The notes under the pieces: model-generated | The model's input: the letters and a program-made list of their open reading frames with translations, nothing else | The model's database searches: none | Told to the model about the DNA's origin: nothing | DNA from: a bacterium | Lineage (GTDB): Bacteria; Myxococcota; UBA727; JAUIJE01 | DNA: 64,000 nucleotides | Assembly (NCBI GenBank): GCA_030431455.1 | Contig: JAUIJE010000019.1 | Location: forward strand, 1 to 64,000 | Reading direction: 5' to 3' | Translations under genes and position numbers: made by a program | Shown here: in pieces, positions 2-56,241 of the stretch | Layout: each line of letters starts with the position of its first letter | Numbering within the stretch: the stretch's first letter is position 1

Positions 2-850
2 CAAGACCATTGCTACGCCGAGCGGCTCAAACCATCGACCATCCAGTTCAAGCAGTACGCATTCGACTGCCACCTCGGACCTGTGTTCGGGCACTTGCCG
101 CTCGATGAGATCAGCAACGCAGACGTGCAAGCGTTCAAGGCCAGCCATCAGGCCACGAGCGCCCACCACGTGAACAACCTGCTCTGCAGCCTCAACGTCG
201 CGGCCAAGAAGGCGGTGGAGTGGGGCGTCATCGAGTACGTCCCGTTCCGCATCCAACTCCTGAAGTCACCGCCCAAGGAAATGCCGTTCTATGACTTCGA
301 CGTCTACAACGACATTGTCAAAGCCGCGCGCGGCATCGACCACCGGGTCTACGTGCACGTCTTGCTCGGCGGCGACGCCGGCCTTCGCGCGGGCGAGACT
401 CGGGGGTTGCAGTGGCCGGACGTGGAGTTCGAGCGCAATCGCCTGCACATCCGCCGCAACCGCTGGCGGGGCCAAGACGTGGTCCCGAAGGGCGGGCGAG
501 GGCGGTACGTGCCGATGACCAAGCGACTGCGCGCGGCCCTCGAGACGCAGGAGGCGGTAGGCGACGACACGCTCTACGTCCTCGTGCGCGACGACGGCGA
601 GCCGCTCTCCCGCCGGACCAACCAGCAATGGATGCAGAAGGCGGAGCGCGCGGTGGGCATCGAGCCCAAGGGCAAGTGCCACATCCTGCGGCACACGTTC
701 TGCTCGCACCTGGCCATCAAAGGCGCGCCCGCGAAGGCCATCCAAGAGCTGGCCGGCCACGCGCAGCTGACGACCACGATGCGCTACATGCACCTCTCGC
801 CGCAGGCGAGAGATTCAGCGATTGCGCTCTTGGACGAGGTCGACGAGTGA
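2..850 (+). CDS. Tyrosine recombinase / phage-type integrase (5' end cut by window edge)
   Basis: Site-specific DNA recombinase of the tyrosine (lambda Int / XerC-like) family. The reading frame is open from base 2, and the first visible residues resemble an N-terminal SAM-like core-binding domain, so the true start lies left of the window; GTG at 83 is an internal codon, not the start. Counting from that GTG, the catalytic set is complete: Arg102 (GLRAGE), Lys136 as the likely beta-hairpin lysine, His200-x-x-Arg203 (HILRH), His226 (LAGHA) and nucleophile Tyr235 (MRYMH). It ends 240 bp before tRNA-Pro and points toward it, the usual geometry of an element integrated at a tRNA gene. The DNA between carries short tandem repeats and tRNA fragments. 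Family assignment is secure; whether it serves a prophage, an ICE or a genomic island cannot be told from what is visible. Confidence 0.93.
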   Translation, partial: QDHCYAERLKPSTIQFKQYAFDCHLGPVFGHLPLDEISNADVQAFKASHQATSAHHVNNLLCSLNVAAKKAVEWGVIEYVPFRIQLLKSPPKEMPFYDFDVYNDIVKAARGIDHRVYVHVLLGGDAGLRAGETRGLQWPDVEFERNRLHIRRNRWRGQDVVPKGGRGRYVPMTKRLRAALETQEAVGDDTLYVLVRDDGEPLSRRTNQQWMQKAERAVGIEPKGKCHILRHTFCSHLAIKGAPAKAIQELAGHAQLTTTMRYMHLSPQARDSAIALLDEVDE

Positions 851-900
851 ACAGGATGAGCAGTGTCCTCCTCGCCTCTCCCTGCGCGCTTTCCACCGCG

Positions 901-933
901 TTTGGAGAGACTTTGGAGACATTCTGGAGACGG
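901..933. repeat. Three tandem 11-bp repeats downstream of the integrase
   Basis: Three adjacent 11-mers, TTTGGAGAGAC, TTTGGAGACAT and TCTGGAGACGG, share the core TNTGGAGA. They lie 50 bp after the integrase stop and before the tRNA 3' end. Position and spacing suggest arm-type binding sites for the recombinase, but this is inference; no protein-binding evidence is visible. Confidence 0.45.
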
Positions 934-974
934 CCCACTTTCAAATGTGAGCAGTCACCACAAGTTGGCACCAA

Positions 975-1113
975 GGTCGGGGTGACCGGCGACCGGAGGG
1001 AGCCCAAAAAAGAACGTGAACAAGCGCTCGCAGAGCGCGTCGTTCAAATCCTGTCACCCAAAGAAAAAGGCTCACAAATGTGAGCCTTTTGGTCGGGGTG
1101 ACAGGATTTGAAC
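975..1113. repeat. Candidate attachment region: copies of the tRNA-Pro 3' end
   Basis: The 12-mer GGTCGGGGTGAC occurs at 975-986 and again at 1091-1102, where it is the 3' end of tRNA-Pro; the copies are in direct orientation. An 18-bp piece of the tRNA T-arm and acceptor (GTTCAAATCCTGTCACCC) also occurs inverted at 1042-1059 relative to its copy at 1096-1113, flanking the terminator hairpin. Duplicated tRNA 3' ends are the classic scar of integration at a tRNA gene. The inverted copy is not expected from simple integration and may reflect a rearranged att site. Confidence 0.5.
1064..1090. terminator. Bidirectional Rho-independent terminator
   Basis: A palindrome at 1069-1086 (GGCTCACA, 2-base centre, TGTGAGCC) is followed by TTTT on the plus strand and by TTTTT on the minus strand (bases 1064-1068). 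It can end both integrase transcripts coming from the left and tRNA-Pro transcripts coming from the right. Confidence 0.85.
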
Positions 1114-1166
1114 ATGCGACCTCTTGCTCCCGAAGCAAGCGCTCTACCAAGCTGAGCTACACCCCG
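1090..1166 (-). tRNA. tRNA-Pro (anticodon CGG)
   Basis: The 77-nt minus-strand cloverleaf includes an encoded CCA. The acceptor stem CGGGGTG/CACCCCG pairs fully; the D-stem is GCTC/GAGC; the anticodon arm is CTTGC, loop TTCGGGA, GCAAG, giving anticodon CGG for proline codon CCG. The T-arm is GCATG, loop TTCAAAT, CCTGT, with one mismatch (T opposite C) and one G-T pair. The 3' end faces the integrase, as in an occupied tRNA attachment site. Confidence 0.93.
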
Positions 1167-20582: not shown

Positions 20583-22406
20583 CTAGGGGGCCACGCAGGC
20601 CTGGCCTTCGCAGGTGTAGGTATTGGGGTCGCGGCACTGGTCCGCCTGCTCACAGGTCACGTAACATTGTCCGTTGACCCCGTCGAAGACCGCCGCTTCG
20701 TTGCAGCCGTACTCCCCACAGGGAATGAACTGGTCGACGTTGCACGCGCCCTGGTCATTGCAGCTCGCGTTGTAAGAGGCCCAGGCGTTGGCGACCCCCT
20801 CCACGTCCCCCAAGAAACACCCGATGCCGCAGTCCGCGGTCTGGGTGTTGTAGCCACAGAACCCGTCGTAGTTGAACGCGCCCACGTCGTCGTAGCGTTG
20901 GCATTGGCCCTGGTCGAGCAGGCACTCGTTGTCGCAGGGGGCGAAGGGGGCGGCGGCCTGTCCCTGGCCGTCGCACTGTTGGGCGGCGTCGGGGGGCAGG
21001 GCGGGGCAGCCCTGGTCGGTGCACTGGGCGTAGATGAGGCCCCCGGCGAAGGTGTGGCAGCCATCGCCCTGGGCCCCGGCCACGACCTCGGTGCAGTCCA
21101 AGGGGGCGCCGCAGTTGCCGCCGGCTTGGATCACGCATTGTCCATTGGCATTGCAGGCTTCGCATTCGCCGTTGCAGGCTTGGTCACAACAGATGCCATC
21201 GACGCAGAACAGACCCGGGGCGCAGTACGGGCCCCCCGCGCCGGGGGCGCAGGTGTCGCCGGCTTGGCCATCGCCGCGGCCGCAGACGCAGTAGTCGGAC
21301 TGGTGGTTGATCTCGGCGCAGCCGAGTTGGCTGTCGAGGTTGGGCGCGCACATATCAGTGACATTGTCCCAGCTGTCGTGGCAGGTGAGACCGGCCAGCG
21401 CGCACGCCGCGTGGCACCCCTCTTGGCCCAAGAACTCGATCTCACAGGTGTCCGGCGACTCCCCGCAGAGGTTGATGCCGTTTTGGGCGAACACGGTGCA
21501 GTCGATGGGCACGTCGCCGTCGCCATCCCCATCGCCGTCTCCATCCCCGTCTCCGTCGCCGTCGCCGTCTCCGTTGAGCCCCACCACGTACACCTCGAGG
21601 TCGAAGCTGAGGTCGCTGCTCTCGGGCGAGGCCTGGTGAACCTCCGCGGCGATGGTGTTGGTGCCCGCGAGCAACAGGCCCGCGCTGATGGTCTGCACCA
21701 GCGGGGTGGCCTCGTCGGCGGCCCCGATGCTGGCGGTGGCCAGGGTGGCGCTGTCGATGGGCGGGGCGGGGAGGTTGTCCGCGAACAGCTGCACCCCGTT
21801 GAGGTACACCACCACGCCGTCGTCACGGATCACGCGCACTTCGGCGTCGGGTTGCACGAAGGGTTGGGCCACGGTGAAGGTGCGGCGGAAATAGGTGGTG
21901 ATGTGTTTGTTCGCCTCGTCGCCGCCGAAGAGCACGGTGGTGGCCTCATCGTTGTCCCCGTAGCCGAGCTCGGCCGGGCCCTCCGACCACGCGCTGTCAT
22001 CGAACAGCGGCGAGGCCCAATCCGCCGGCGGAACCGAGCCGTCGTCGAGGTAGCGCCAGGTCGACCCAAACGGGACCACGTACGGGTCGTCGCCATCCCC
22101 GTCTCCGTCGCCATCCCCGTCCCCGTCGCCATCTCCGTCTCCGTCGCCATCTCCGTCTCCGTCGCCATCCCCGTCTCCGTCGCCGTCCCCGTCTCCGTCG
22201 CCGTCGCCATCTCCGTCGCCGTCGCCATCCCCGTCGCCGTCCCCCGGCCGGGTGGTGTCCACACAGACGCCGTCGATGCAGGACAGGTTGGCGTCTGCGC
22301 ACTCATCGTCGGCGCTGCAGAGCTTGCCTTCCACGTTCAAGGAGGGGAGAAAGCAGCCGGCGATCGACGCGACTGCCGCGAACAGAATCCATACCCGCGC
22401 ATTCAT
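20583..22406 (-). CDS. Cys-rich lipoprotein with two (Gly-Asp)n linkers
   Basis: A 607-residue lipoprotein. ATG 22406 is chosen because it gives a clean signal with lipobox IAGC and has TATACT seven bases upstream. Order: short Cys motif domain (CSADDECADANLSC); a Gly-Asp tract at about residues 55-108; a beta-sandwich region (about 110-290) with a jelly-roll-like GSTWRYLDDGS...DWASPLFDDSAW pattern seen in galactose-binding-like modules; a second Gly-Asp tract; then 300 residues with some 40 cysteines in CxxxxCxxxC modules. Likely displayed on the cell surface and disulfide-stabilised. The product resembles other Myxococcota secreted proteins only in style; no enzyme signature is visible. Confidence 0.85.
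   Translation of the reverse strand: MNARVWILFAAVASIAGCFLPSLNVEGKLCSADDECADANLSCIDGVCVDTTRPGDGDGDGDGDGDGDGDGDGDGDGDGDGDGDGDGDGDGDGDGDGDGDGDGDGDDPYVVPFGSTWRYLDDGSVPPADWASPLFDDSAWSEGPAELGYGDNDEATTVLFGGDEANKHITTYFRRTFTVAQPFVQPDAEVRVIRDDGVVVYLNGVQLFADNLPAPPIDSATLATASIGAADEATPLVQTISAGLLLAGTNTIAAEVHQASPESSDLSFDLEVYVVGLNGDGDGDGDGDGDGDGDGDGDVPIDCTVFAQNGINLCGESPDTCEIEFLGQEGCHAACALAGLTCHDSWDNVTDMCAPNLDSQLGCAEINHQSDYCVCGRGDGQAGDTCAPGAGGPYCAPGLFCVDGICCDQACNGECEACNANGQCVIQAGGNCGAPLDCTEVVAGAQGDGCHTFAGGLIYAQCTDQGCPALPPDAAQQCDGQGQAAAPFAPCDNECLLDQGQCQRYDDVGAFNYDGFCGYNTQTADCGIGCFLGDVEGVANAWASYNASCNDQGACNVDQFIPCGEYGCNEAAVFDGVNGQCYVTCEQADQCRDPNTYTCEGQACVAP
21513..21574 (-). repeat. (Gly-Asp)n hexanucleotide tract, second linker
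   Basis: About ten imperfect GGNGAY hexamers (read on the minus strand) encode a Gly-Asp linker between the beta-sandwich and Cys-rich parts of the lipoprotein. Hexamer slippage would change linker length without shifting frame. Confidence 0.8.
22089..22245 (-). repeat. (Gly-Asp)n hexanucleotide tract, first linker
   Basis: Roughly 26 GGNGAY hexamers, with third-base variation (gga/ggc/ggg and gac/gat), encode a long acidic Gly-Asp spacer after the N-terminal Cys motif. The synonymous variation is greatest at hexamer level, as in an old microsatellite. Confidence 0.85.
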
Positions 22407-44335: not shown

Positions 44336-45523
44336 ATGACATCTTCCCTGCGTTCACCCGATTGGTTGTTGGCCCTGTTGGCGGTGGTCTCGCTGGTGTC
44401 CTGCACCGGCGGACCCGATGACCCCGTGGAGGACGGGGGCACCGCGTCTTCGGACGCGGGCAACGGTGACGGGCCGCCTGACGGCGGCTTGGAAGAACCG
44501 TCGGACGGCGGAGCCGCCGACGCCGGTTCTTCAGGCGATGGAGACGGTGACGGGGATGGCGACGGTGATGGGGATGGGGATGGAGATGGTGATGGGGATG
44601 GAGATGGAGATGGAGATGGCGACGGTGATGGAGATGGCGACGGCGATGGGGATGGAGATGGCGACGGCGATGGGGATGGGGACGGCGACGAGGACTACAG
44701 CGTCATGGGCCCGGCCACGGTCGCCCTGACCAGCGAGGACATCACGCGCGACGGCCGCTTTATCGGCATCACCCGCTACACCCCGTCGACGACCGCGGTG
44801 GGTCACGTCGTGTTCGCGCCCGGCTTTCAGCTCGACGCCGCCTTCTACGAGACCTGGCTCACCCACCTGGCGAGCTGGGGCTTTGACGTGCTCGCCCTCG
44901 ACCTCGAAGGGGGGCCGCTCACGGTCAACCACGTCGCCATGTCACTGGACATGTCCGCGGCGATCGATCACGCGGGCCCCGACGCCACCGGTCTGCCCGT
45001 GGTGGTGGCCGGGCACAGCCTGGGCGGCAAGGTCGCGTTCATGACCGCCTTCGCCGACGACCGGGCCGCGGCCGTGCTCGCCCTCGACCCCGTCAACGGG
45101 GCCAACCCCATCACCGGCTATTCGGCGAACCTCCCCGACATCGTGCCCGACCAGGTCGCGCCGCTGACCGTGCCCATCGCGCTGTTCGGCGAGACCACCG
45201 ACGCGATGGTGCCGGGTTTTGGCCAAGCCTGCGCGCCCGCGGCGCAGAACTTCCAGACCTTCTTCGACGCCGCGACCTCGTCGCCCTTGGTCTACGCCTG
45301 GACCGTCACCGGCGCGAACCACATGGACTTTTTGTCCGACCCGGAGGACTGCGGGTTTGCCTGTGGCCTGTGCAACGACAGCACCGCGGACGTGCCCGCG
45401 GTGCAGCTCGCCCTCCGCGAACGCGCGGCCGCCTTCGTCCTCAGCGCGGTGGCCGCCATCGCGCCCCCGCCCGCGGTGCTGGCCAGCGACGACGCCACGA
45501 TCACCACCCAGGTGGGGCCGTGA
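44336..45523 (+). CDS. Alpha/beta-hydrolase lipoprotein with (Gly-Asp)n linker
   Basis: A 395-residue lipoprotein: signal with lipobox LVSC, a 40-residue linker containing the palindromic cassette, a tract of 26 Gly-Asp pairs, then an alpha/beta-hydrolase domain from about residue 120. The nucleophile elbow GHSLGG is near 224-229, an acid loop DPVNGAN follows, and the last-strand His lies in TGANHMDFL. The pattern ([27 protein letters not shown]) resembles dienelactone hydrolase, chlorophyllase and polyester-hydrolase-like lipases. Predicted to hydrolyse an ester outside the cell while held away from the surface by the acidic spacer. Cys residues near the C-terminus may form a disulfide. Confidence 0.88.
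44471..44541 (+). repeat. Palindromic cassette, copy A
   Basis: A 71-bp segment identical base for base to 55042-55112. It contains GAAGAACCG and its complement CGGTTCTTC around an inner CGGCGG/CCGCCG stem, and encodes a Gly-Pro-Pro-Asp-Gly-Gly then [12 protein letters not shown] linker directly before a Gly-Asp tract. Confidence 0.85.
44534..44689 (+). repeat. (Gly-Asp)26 hexanucleotide tract
   Basis: Twenty-six GGNGAY hexamers with synonymous variation between cassette copy A and the hydrolase domain. Slippage would change spacer length in frame. Confidence 0.85.
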
Positions 45524-47833: not shown

Positions 47834-49293
47834 GGGCCCTCCGCGGGGTCGACGGTGACAAAGTCAGAGTTCGGGCGTTGGCTCGCGTACACCGCTTCCG
47901 CCCAGCCCGCGGGCACCGCCTGGTCGAGGAGCAGGACCTCGTCGAGGGTGCCGTCCAGCCATTCGTCGGTGGTCACCCAGGGCACGGTGGCGAGCCACAC
48001 GTCTTGGTCGGGGTCGTCGAAATACGGGGTCACGTCCTGTTCGTCGACGAGAACGCCGTTGATCCACAACGTGGACAGGCCCGCCTCGGTGGCGCGCAAA
48101 AAGACGTGGGTCCAGCCCGGGTGGCCCTGGCCGGGCGGGGGCGTGAGCAACGACAGGTAGTTGTTGGGCCCAAAGCGCGTGTGCAGGTTGTACGCGGTGT
48201 CCGCGGGGTTGGGGTTGAGCACCACGTCGAGCCCGTCGACCGAGTCGAACGCGGGGCGGCGCACGAACAGGCGCATCCAGCGGTTGGCGTTCTCGTCGTC
48301 GACGGAGACCCACGCGGAGAGGCTCAGGCTGGCCAGCGACGGGGCGGCGGCATCGGACCAGGGCACTTGCACCCCCGCGGTGCCGCTGAAGTGCGACGCG
48401 CGGCCGACCACGCCGGCGGGGAAGGGGTTGTTGGGGTCGAGGGCCTGGGGCTGCAAGATGCCGTCGCGTTGCGCCTGGCTGCTGTCGGGCACGGTGTCGC
48501 CAACGTTGCCTTGGTCGAGGTGCCAGACGCCGACGAAGTCATCGGACCAGGCCGGGGGGGGGACGGGCGGGGTCCCAGCCGGGTGGAAATAGGCATAGAA
48601 GGTCGTGTTTTGGCCGGGCACGAGCTGGGGGACCCGCACGTAGGCTTCGAGGCTGCCGGTGCCCGGGTCGTAGTGGGTGATGTCCGCGCCCCAGAGCACA
48701 TCGGTGCTCGAGAAGAACGCGATCTGTGCGGCCTGTGCGCCGGAGGCCTCGGGGCTGGCGTCGAGCCGCACCAACACCGGGAAGTCCTGGAGCGTGGCCG
48801 TGACCTGGGTGCCGTCGACGTGAATCGCGCGCCGGGCGAGGTACGGCAGGTTCCATGGGGCGCCCGCGTCGACGCCGTGCGCGTCCGGGGGCCCCCCCGC
48901 ATCAAACAGCCCCGCGTCGAGCCCCCCGGCGTCGACCGTCACGATCACCCCGGCGTCGTCGTCGCCTGAAGAACCGGCGTCGGCGGCTCCGCCGTCCGAC
49001 GGTTCTTCCAAGCCGCCGTCAGGCGGCCCATCTCCATCCCCATCTCCATCTCCATCTCCATCTCCGTCGCCGTCGCCGTCGCCTGAAGAACCGGCGTCGG
49101 CGGCTCCGCCGTCCGACGGTTCTTCCAAGCCGCCGTCCGGCGGCCGGTCTCCATCGCCATCGCCATCGCCGTCACCGTCGCCGTCTCCATCCCCGTCGCC
49201 GGAAGAACCGGGGCCCCCCACCAAAAAGAACGAGCAGCCGCCCGCCATTGTCAGCAACCCCACCAGCGCGCTCGCCCACACCATCCGCAGCAT
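47830..49293 (-). CDS. DUF2341/LamG-type lipoprotein with duplicated cassette linker
   Basis: A 487-residue lipoprotein (lipobox MAGGC). The N-terminal 130 residues are linker: a Gly-Asp tract, a cassette copy, a second Gly-Asp tract and a second cassette copy, then Asp/Ala/Gly sequence. From about 145 a DUF2341-like domain (ARRAIHVDGTQVTATLQDFPVLVRLD) is followed by a LamG/concanavalin-like lectin domain (WSDDFVGVWHLDQ, SLSAWVSVDDE, WTHVFLRATEAGL, WLDGTLDEVLLLD). Such pairs bind glycans or polymers on secreted proteins. TACGCT six bases before ATG 49293 suggests a leaderless mRNA, although GGGGG there could also act as a weak Shine-Dalgarno. Confidence 0.88.
   Translation of the reverse strand: MLRMVWASALVGLLTMAGGCSFFLVGGPGSSGDGDGDGDGDGDGDGDGDRPPDGGLEEPSDGGAADAGSSGDGDGDGDGDGDGDGDGDGPPDGGLEEPSDGGAADAGSSGDDDAGVIVTVDAGGLDAGLFDAGGPPDAHGVDAGAPWNLPYLARRAIHVDGTQVTATLQDFPVLVRLDASPEASGAQAAQIAFFSSTDVLWGADITHYDPGTGSLEAYVRVPQLVPGQNTTFYAYFHPAGTPPVPPPAWSDDFVGVWHLDQGNVGDTVPDSSQAQRDGILQPQALDPNNPFPAGVVGRASHFSGTAGVQVPWSDAAAPSLASLSLSAWVSVDDENANRWMRLFVRRPAFDSVDGLDVVLNPNPADTAYNLHTRFGPNNYLSLLTPPPGQGHPGWTHVFLRATEAGLSTLWINGVLVDEQDVTPYFDDPDQDVWLATVPWVTTDEWLDGTLDEVLLLDQAVPAGWAEAVYASQRPNSDFVTVDPAEGP
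48962..49029 (-). repeat. Palindromic cassette, copy C
   Basis: 68 bp identical to the corresponding part of copies A and D, on the minus strand, inside the lipoprotein linker. Flanked by a Gly-Asp tract on its 5' side. Confidence 0.85.
49030..49204 (-). repeat. Two (Gly-Asp)n tracts flanking cassette copy B
   Basis: GGNGAY hexamers occupy about 49030-49078 and 49147-49204 (minus strand), separated by cassette copy B. They encode acidic spacers of about eight and ten Gly-Asp pairs. Confidence 0.75.
49079..49146 (-). repeat. Palindromic cassette, copy B
   Basis: 68 bp matching copy C at all but about two positions, 117 bp away in the same gene. Together with the Gly-Asp tract between them it looks like a tandem duplication of a cassette-plus-tract unit. 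Confidence 0.85.
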
Positions 49294-54810: not shown

Positions 54811-56241
54811 ATGTGGCATCGGCTGAACAATCGTGGGGGGTTGGCTCTCATCATCTTCCTCGGGGGGGCGCTGTCCGCGTGCACCGGCGGGGACGGGGAG
54901 GAGATCGCCCGCGACGACGACGACCGCGGCGATGGGCAAGAAGACCTCTGCGAGACCCAGGGCTTGTACGGCGATGGTGTGTGCGACCGCGCCTGCGCCA
55001 ACCCCGACCCCGATTGTGAGGGCGAAGGCGGCGATGGCGATGGGCCGCCTGACGGCGGCTTGGAAGAACCGTCGGACGGCGGAGCCGCCGACGCCGGTTC
55101 TTCAGGCGATGGGGACGGCGACGGGGATGGGGATGGGGATGGTGATGGTGATGGGGATGGGGATGGCGACGGCGACGGCGACGGCGATTGCGCGGGCCAA
55201 CCTGCCTGGATCAGCGACGGCTACTGCGACCCGGAGAACAACAACGCGGGGTGCGGCTACGACGGGGGCGATTGTTGTTCGGACACCTGCAGCGACGGGC
55301 CCCAGTACATGTGCGGCTCAGCCGGCTTCGACTGCCAAGACCCCAACGCGAGCGGCAACGGCGGGTGCGGCGACCCGCTTCACGTCGCGGGCACGTTGCA
55401 GGTGGCGGGCAAGACCGTCACCGCCCAACCCGGTGCGTTCGCCACCATGAACCTGCGCCACAAGATCGACATCGACCCCATCGAGGACGGCTGCGTGTCC
55501 GCCCAGAACGTGCAGGTCGAAATGAAACTGCATCCGAACGGGTGTCGGGTGGACCTGCACTTCACCCAGCAGGACAACACCGCGTTGGTGCGGCTGAGCT
55601 GGCTCTCGTTCCACGCCGATTCTTTCTGCCCCGGGTTTTTGGACGCGGAGGAGGGCTCCTACACGACGTCGTCGTCCGCGGCGATGGCCGATGGCTTCGC
55701 TGCCCACGCCGCCCTGTGGCTGCAAGGGCTGCCCGCCCAGGTCCCGGATGCCCAGGCGAGCACCTCCTGCTTGGACAACGTCACCCTCAGCGTCGCGGAC
55801 CTCGACATCCCGGTGGGCACCCCCGGCGGCGAAGCGGCCAGCATCAATCTCAGCGGGTTGACCATCACCGGCTCGCCGGTGAGCACCGGCAGCACCAACG
55901 CCGCGTGCCTTCAGGGCGTGGGGTGTATGGCGTCCGCGCACGACGGGGGCGGCGGCCTCTGCTACGACTTCGGCACCTGCGCCCCCGGCTACAGCTATGA
56001 CCCCGACCAGGACATGTGCCAGTTCGGCCCTGGGCCCGAGCCGGAGCCGGAGCCGGAGCCCGAGCCCACCGGCGAGTGGACCTGTTCGGCCAGCTACTAC
56101 GGCACCGGCGACGGCTGTGACTGCGGGTGCGGCATCCCCGACCCGGACTGCGCGACCTCCGCCATCGCCTCGTGCGCCTACGCGGGCAACTGCGGGTCCC
56201 TCGACTTCGTCGACCCCGCGGACACGACCCAATGTCTCTGA
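54811..56241 (+). CDS. LNR-containing Cys-rich lipoprotein with cassette and (Gly-Asp)n linker
   Basis: A 476-residue lipoprotein (lipobox LSAC). After an acidic stretch and a short Cys motif (LYGDGVCDRACANPDPDC) come cassette copy D, 14 Gly-Asp pairs, and an LNR (Lin-12/Notch repeat) module of about 30 residues, ISDGYCDPENNNAGCGYDGG followed by DCC, with the DGxCD and GYDGGDC calcium-coordinating pattern. A beta-rich domain of about 230 residues with two Cys pairs follows, then a Pro-Glu repeat and a final Cys module ending GCGIPDPDCA. ATG 54811 has a strong Shine-Dalgarno in a hairpin. Surface display and calcium-dependent folding are likely; the function is unknown. Confidence 0.87.
   Translation: MWHRLNNRGGLALIIFLGGALSACTGGDGEEIARDDDDRGDGQEDLCETQGLYGDGVCDRACANPDPDCEGEGGDGDGPPDGGLEEPSDGGAADAGSSGDGDGDGDGDGDGDGDGDGDGDGDGDGDCAGQPAWISDGYCDPENNNAGCGYDGGDCCSDTCSDGPQYMCGSAGFDCQDPNASGNGGCGDPLHVAGTLQVAGKTVTAQPGAFATMNLRHKIDIDPIEDGCVSAQNVQVEMKLHPNGCRVDLHFTQQDNTALVRLSWLSFHADSFCPGFLDAEEGSYTTSSSAAMADGFAAHAALWLQGLPAQVPDAQASTSCLDNVTLSVADLDIPVGTPGGEAASINLSGLTITGSPVSTGSTNAACLQGVGCMASAHDGGGGLCYDFGTCAPGYSYDPDQDMCQFGPGPEPEPEPEPEPTGEWTCSASYYGTGDGCDCGCGIPDPDCATSAIASCAYAGNCGSLDFVDPADTTQCL
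55042..55112 (+). repeat. Palindromic cassette, copy D
   Basis: 71 bp identical to copy A at 44471-44541, about 10.5 kb away in a gene of unrelated domain content. It again directly precedes a Gly-Asp tract. Confidence 0.85.
55105..55188 (+). repeat. (Gly-Asp)14 hexanucleotide tract
   Basis: Fourteen GGNGAY hexamers between cassette copy D and the LNR module. Confidence 0.85.

Follow-up and report, generated by a model that had tools for sequence, protein, structure and literature searches.

Copies of the tRNA 3' end between an integrase and tRNA-Pro(CGG) probably form a unit of a tRNA-tail array and are not mainly attachment scars

Introduction

Near the left end of the window, by which we mean the whole 64-kb stretch of DNA analysed here, direct and inverted copies of the 3' end of a tRNA-Pro(CGG) gene lie between this gene and an integrase gene. 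Are these copies scars left by integration, or do they have another origin? A sequence-only reading of this DNA had proposed that they may record nested or failed integrations.

Results

The tRNA-Pro(CGG) gene occupies positions 1090-1166 on the minus strand (ARAGORN and RF00005). The repeats given in the sequence-only reading are exact: the 12-bp direct pair (975-986/1091-1102) matches at 12/12 positions and can be lengthened to 15 nt at the cost of one mismatch (975-989/1091-1105), the copy being on the minus strand, while the 18-bp inverted pair (1042-1059/1096-1113) matches at 18/18 positions, the copy being on the plus strand and corresponding to the T-arm and acceptor 3' strand of the tRNA. 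The inverted copy is part of a longer arm (1042-1076), which together with 1079-1113 forms an inverted repeat of 35 nt that is 89% complementary, has a gap of 2 nt and is centred on the terminator hairpin immediately 3' of the tRNA (1066-1089, minus strand). This arm pair is the top entry among the 13 inverted repeats listed in the window (arms of at least 20 nt, spacing of at most 60 nt). In the direction of tRNA-Pro, the tRNA 3' end is followed by the terminator hairpin with a T-run, the inverted copy, a GC hairpin (GCGCTC-TGC-GAGCGC; 1024-1038, minus strand), a second T-run and the direct copy of 12-15 bases, which is 124 bp from the integrase stop. The fold of 1020-1166 has a z-score of -7.6, and 0/200 dinucleotide shuffles equalled it. 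The rest of the window contains no comparable palindrome, and we therefore rejected the idea that it is a general feature of the terminators in this genome.

The integrase gene (2-850, plus strand) encodes a tyrosine integrase with a Phage_integrase domain (Pfam, E 1.8e-30) and an N-terminal SAM-like domain. Its frame is open at the 5' end, and this end is missing because base 1 of the window is base 1 of contig C27 in a 7.7-Mb genome assembled into 28 contigs. The integrase relatives that carry a name belong to Myxococcales, Anaeromyxobacter and other Deltaproteobacteria records, plus one 'bacterium CPR1', which makes Myxococcota the probable phylum of this genome. The sequence-only reading described the integrase as abutting tRNA-Pro; the two are indeed adjacent, but the term is loose, as the integrase stop is 240 bp from the tRNA. 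Between them, three TGGAGA repeats in 11-bp steps (903-931, plus strand) are probably arm-type sites of the integrase. The pattern TGGAGAN5TGGAGA has two overlapping matches at 903-930 and no other in the window, with 0 expected; in 20 kb of a second contig, C16, it has one match. Among 269 loci, 11 were matched, ten of which are overlapping stretches of these C27 and C16 places, and the eleventh (L100) carries phased repeats that adjoin a related integrase.

The sequence-only reading had suggested that a far attachment copy be sought, and such a copy was found, albeit on another contig. A search with the 23-nt tRNA end, allowing up to 3 mismatches, gave four places: the window, C16:766053-766075 (one mismatch) and two other tRNA-Pro genes. 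Window positions 1086-1112 (plus strand) are identical to C16:766048-766074 at 27/27 bases and in the same orientation, making the latter a candidate far att site; the phased match on C16 lies 131 bp past this copy. Because the 11-bp-phased TGGAGA repeats are common to C16 and C27, these contigs probably hold the opposite ends of a single integrated element. They are separate in the assembly; C16 stops 1.4 kb past the copy and C27 begins inside the integrase. In a synteny comparison with three order mates (G006, G003 and G008), the right flank was common to all three, the C16-side genes were not found beside tRNA-Pro, and one weak C16 match lay ~15 kb from the tRNA. It seems that an ordinary mobile element landed at tRNA-Pro. 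The sequence-only reading is thus supported in part, as regards an integration at the tRNA; we found no support for its view of the inverted and closely spaced direct copies as records of nested or failed integrations.

Beside the far tRNA-end copy, near the right end of C16, there are four tail units, the fourth of which is incomplete (TRF period 119, 2.7 copies, 87%). Units one to three terminate in CACCCCGACCA. The unit in the window shares the layout of these units and differs from them in the letters of its hairpins. When folded, the units form the terminator and a further structure, which in most cases is closed by pairing of the inverted with the direct copy, and four stretches gave z-scores of -5.5 to -9.0. 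Between C16 units 2 and 3, the terminator stems have changed on both sides with pairing kept (read by eye). Separately, the outermost C16 unit (L046 18100-18150) and the tail of tRNA-fMet (L065), which belong to different tRNAs, match over 55 nt at 84%.

We compared the last 45 nt of each of the 44 tRNAs listed with RF00005 with the 300 bp on its 3' side, in either direction and with other tRNAs masked; the cut-off, a local score of at least 12, was chosen after an initial inspection of this genome. All 44 were examined, and 8/44 were positive (Pro-CGG, Arg-TCT, Phe, Gly-GCC, Asn, Arg-ACG, His and Ser-TGA), with inverted copies in 6 and direct copies in 6; the upstream control gave 2. When tRNAs were permuted among tails, the mean was 1.2 and the maximum 6, and 0/20,000 permutations reached 8. 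Moreover, five other genomes of the phylum had self copies at only 3/168 tRNAs (Fisher p = 2e-4 versus 8/44 here): 2/44 in G006, 0/46 in G008, and 0/29, 0/26 and 1/23 in G002, G057 and G048, which were examined in part (tRNAs listed there: 32, 62 and 44). The two positives in G006 were matched by 792/20,000 permutations, and a single 33-bp terminator array follows tRNA-Trp in G008. With TRF, arrays that begin within the tRNA end were found in 5/44 tails of 600 bp, in 4/44 tails of 300 bp and at 1/44 upstream. Thus, at several tRNAs of this genome, inverted and/or direct copies of the tRNA's own 3' end surround the terminator hairpin, often in tandem, and the repeats near tRNA-Pro are not mainly att scars but one unit of such a tRNA-tail array.

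The tails vary from tRNA to tRNA in unit sequence, length and hairpins. In Arg-TCT and Phe, the units contain copies of the anticodon arm instead of an inverted acceptor. Two further tails resemble the array tails and fail the self-copy test, i.e. those of Gln (terminator in tandem, 43 bp x2.9) and fMet (a weaker copy). The inverted copy in the fMet tail is closer to the tRNA-Pro end than to its own, 8/43 swapped tRNAs scoring equally, and the Asn and fMet tails share stretches, as do those of Arg-ACG and His; therefore, not every tail copy is plainly self-made. Past the first terminator, the array tails (10) fold slightly better than the others (34; p = 0.04). A common mobile unit among the tails was considered and not supported: matching pairs numbered 15 for tail-tail, 8 for upstream-upstream and 18 for tail-upstream comparisons, although three pairs do share stretches. 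Short-period tandem repeats, which make up most TRF rows of the window, include GATGGC/GTCGCC-type repeats at 22088-22244, 44537-44690, 48954-49211 and 55105-55192; these repeats also occur behind tRNA-Leu(CAA) and on C16, and perhaps reflect Gly/Asp-rich coding.

The relatives used for comparison were order mates from other families and genomes of the same phylum. The tRNA-Pro sequence was matched in 56/58 genomes; at 29 loci from these genomes (L017-L045), there was no inverted tRNA-end match longer than 8 nt within 160 bp 3' of the tRNA. In G006, G003 and G008, the in-place tRNA-Pro tail has only a terminator-like hairpin (read by eye). G006 has a 22.5-kb element in tRNA-Pro (contig C13, 107.6-130.2 kb; L262 7653-7830, L263 10107-10195); each end of the element carries a 45-nt att copy and TTTGCTAC repeats in 11-bp phase. 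The original tRNA end of 45 nt has been displaced to the far side of the element, and behind it come a terminator, an inverted copy and a GC hairpin; this displaced tail folds with a z-score of -8.1. Across the phylum, the tRNA-Pro palindrome pattern occurs in 2/195 genomes, namely this genome (two places) and G006 (one place), and in none of the controls. Accordingly, either two families of this order share the tRNA-Pro unit or it has two origins.

Discussion

We consider it probable that the inverted and direct copies near tRNA-Pro make up a single unit of an RtT-like tRNA-tail array; the likeliest origin of such arrays is template switching at the terminator together with tandem duplication, and we take them to be mostly a by-product. 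During replication, the terminator hairpin would allow the growing strand to loop back and use the tRNA end as its template, which would leave an inverted tRNA copy past the terminator. Further switching or slippage, with the short direct copies also recombining unequally, could then give tandem units. At tRNA-Pro, a common tRNA-targeting element would have entered in or beside the array, so that most units would have come to lie past the element at its C16 end and one between the tRNA and the integrase. A read-through transcript is predicted to string together terminators and hairpin structures, which in several units would be closed by pairing of the inverted with the direct copy, and to end in CCA.

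An alternative is that the units are selected as RNA and, as proposed for RtT, either back up termination downstream of tRNAs with strong transcription or yield CCA-ended small RNAs that tRNA processing sets free. The folding of every unit around the terminator, with the low z-scores of the four stretches, would agree with such a function, as would stems that remain paired in spite of changes; moreover, passages of PMC4986893 describe RtT RNAs as expressed in A. pleuropneumoniae. Against it, only 8/44 tails are involved here and nearly no tRNAs in the five other genomes, the units of different tRNAs differ in sequence, length and hairpins, and Rfam gives no match in them apart from the tRNA. 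Template switching keeps palindromes too, and both-sided stem changes are expected under it according to parts of PMC8794818; the pairing-preserving changes in C16 units 2 and 3 are what either template switching or selection would be expected to give. We therefore regard selection for RNA as rather unlikely. The wider hypothesis that tRNA 3' ends in this lineage amplify themselves, with template switching at the terminator continually adding palindromic tail arrays with CCA ends at many tRNA genes, and that these arrays serve as spare attachment sites where elements integrate instead of in the tRNA, is, in our view, improbable.

That elements use array copies as spare attachment sites in place of the tRNA, with the element here sitting at the copy at 975-986, is suggested by the spacing of the integrase region. 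Among ten integrase relatives, four face a tRNA (L099 Leu, L100 Glu, L101 Gly and L104 Asp) and six do not; the gap between the match end and the tRNA is 87-94 bp in these four and ~255 bp in the window, and the extra distance is about the size of one tail unit. Likewise, 43 bp separate the end of the phased repeats from the copy at 975, and 158 bp separate it from the tRNA; in L100, the corresponding distance to the tRNA is 36 bp. Thus, either an array copy was used as the core of the element or a unit grew after integration; as the latter yields equal spacing, as the phased repeats provide a single comparison and as arrays are absent from the three other tRNAs that adjoin an integrase, we consider the use of spare sites improbable.

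Least probable, and in our judgement very much so, are nested or failed integrations at tRNA-Pro: the adjacent integrase, the far copy and the 22.5-kb element in the G006 tRNA-Pro would fit them, but among the eight tyrosine-integrase (PF00589) genes of the genome (nine matches) those within ~0.25 kb of a tRNA lie at Pro, Asp, Arg-CCG and Ala-TGC, with copies at Pro only, the nine other tails with copies or arrays have no such gene within 40 kb (the nearest on the contig being at least 41 kb away, or none), and integration by itself does not yield inverted copies centred on a terminator.

These tails are of interest in two respects. With about one-fifth of the tRNA genes (8/44) carrying copies of their own 3' ends, this genome offers many parallel cases in which to trace how such tails originate; in addition, short tRNA repeats near an integrase are not necessarily att sites.

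Three known systems resemble parts of this locus. Like tRNA-targeting elements with a tyrosine integrase, it has an integrase of the tyrosine recombinase family adjoining tRNA-Pro and convergent with it, a tRNA-end copy at the far side, here on another contig, and phased repeats on both sides; these elements account for the C16 copy but not for the inverted copy or the 116-bp spacing of the direct copies. Template-switch (quasipalindrome) mutation likewise gives a hairpin-centred inverted copy and stems changed on both sides together, whereas tandem amplification requires a further step; known events of this kind are mostly shorter.

The third system is the RtT repeat (RF00391; rttR, tpr) of E. 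coli tyrT/tyrV, whose tandem units behind the tRNA each include the final 19 nt of that tRNA. Among repeats of this type, the best known follow a single E. coli tRNA-Tyr operon. Our self-copy comparison detects the E. coli tyrV tail (178 bp x3.1, 95%; direct 19; inverted 14.5). The Rfam model recognises the units of this tail and, among 14 control genomes, matches E. coli alone. With this model (at least 45 bits), 11 loci gave only the tRNA at gathering score, the genome had no match at E 0.1, and 0/193 genomes of the phylum exceeded the cut-off under stricter filters; sub-threshold matches in G113, G111 and G063 were discarded, being at loci without a tRNA. As a separate observation, the inverted T-arm in the Ser-TGA tail (L077 1618-1637) reads GGTGGGTGAGAACC and that of E. 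coli RtT GGATGAGAAGC; both show TTCGAA changed to TGAGAA, perhaps by chance.

Among the results listed in a literature search, which lay mostly outside subscription journals, there was no report of such palindromic tails behind numerous tRNA genes in a single genome. Passages of PMC4986893 describe RtT-like RNAs from many E. coli tRNA operons, so that occurrence at many tRNAs is not without precedent, and place RtT RNAs adjacent to tRNA-Asn and tRNA-Lys genes; part of PMC2965389 likens RtT to BIME repeats. As in E. coli, where an inverted T-arm/acceptor copy closes the structure with CCA at the end, tandem units carrying the tRNA 3' end occur here in the C16 array and in 5/44 tRNA tails, and an inverted tRNA end pairs with a direct copy in the folds of several units, among them Pro, His and Asn, but not in those of Arg-TCT, Phe and Gly. 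Unlike E. coli RtT, the units here vary with the tRNA they follow, and an intrinsic terminator forms their centre. In total, as judged from their sequences, the tails fall outside RF00391 and are built like RtT, the closest known kind.
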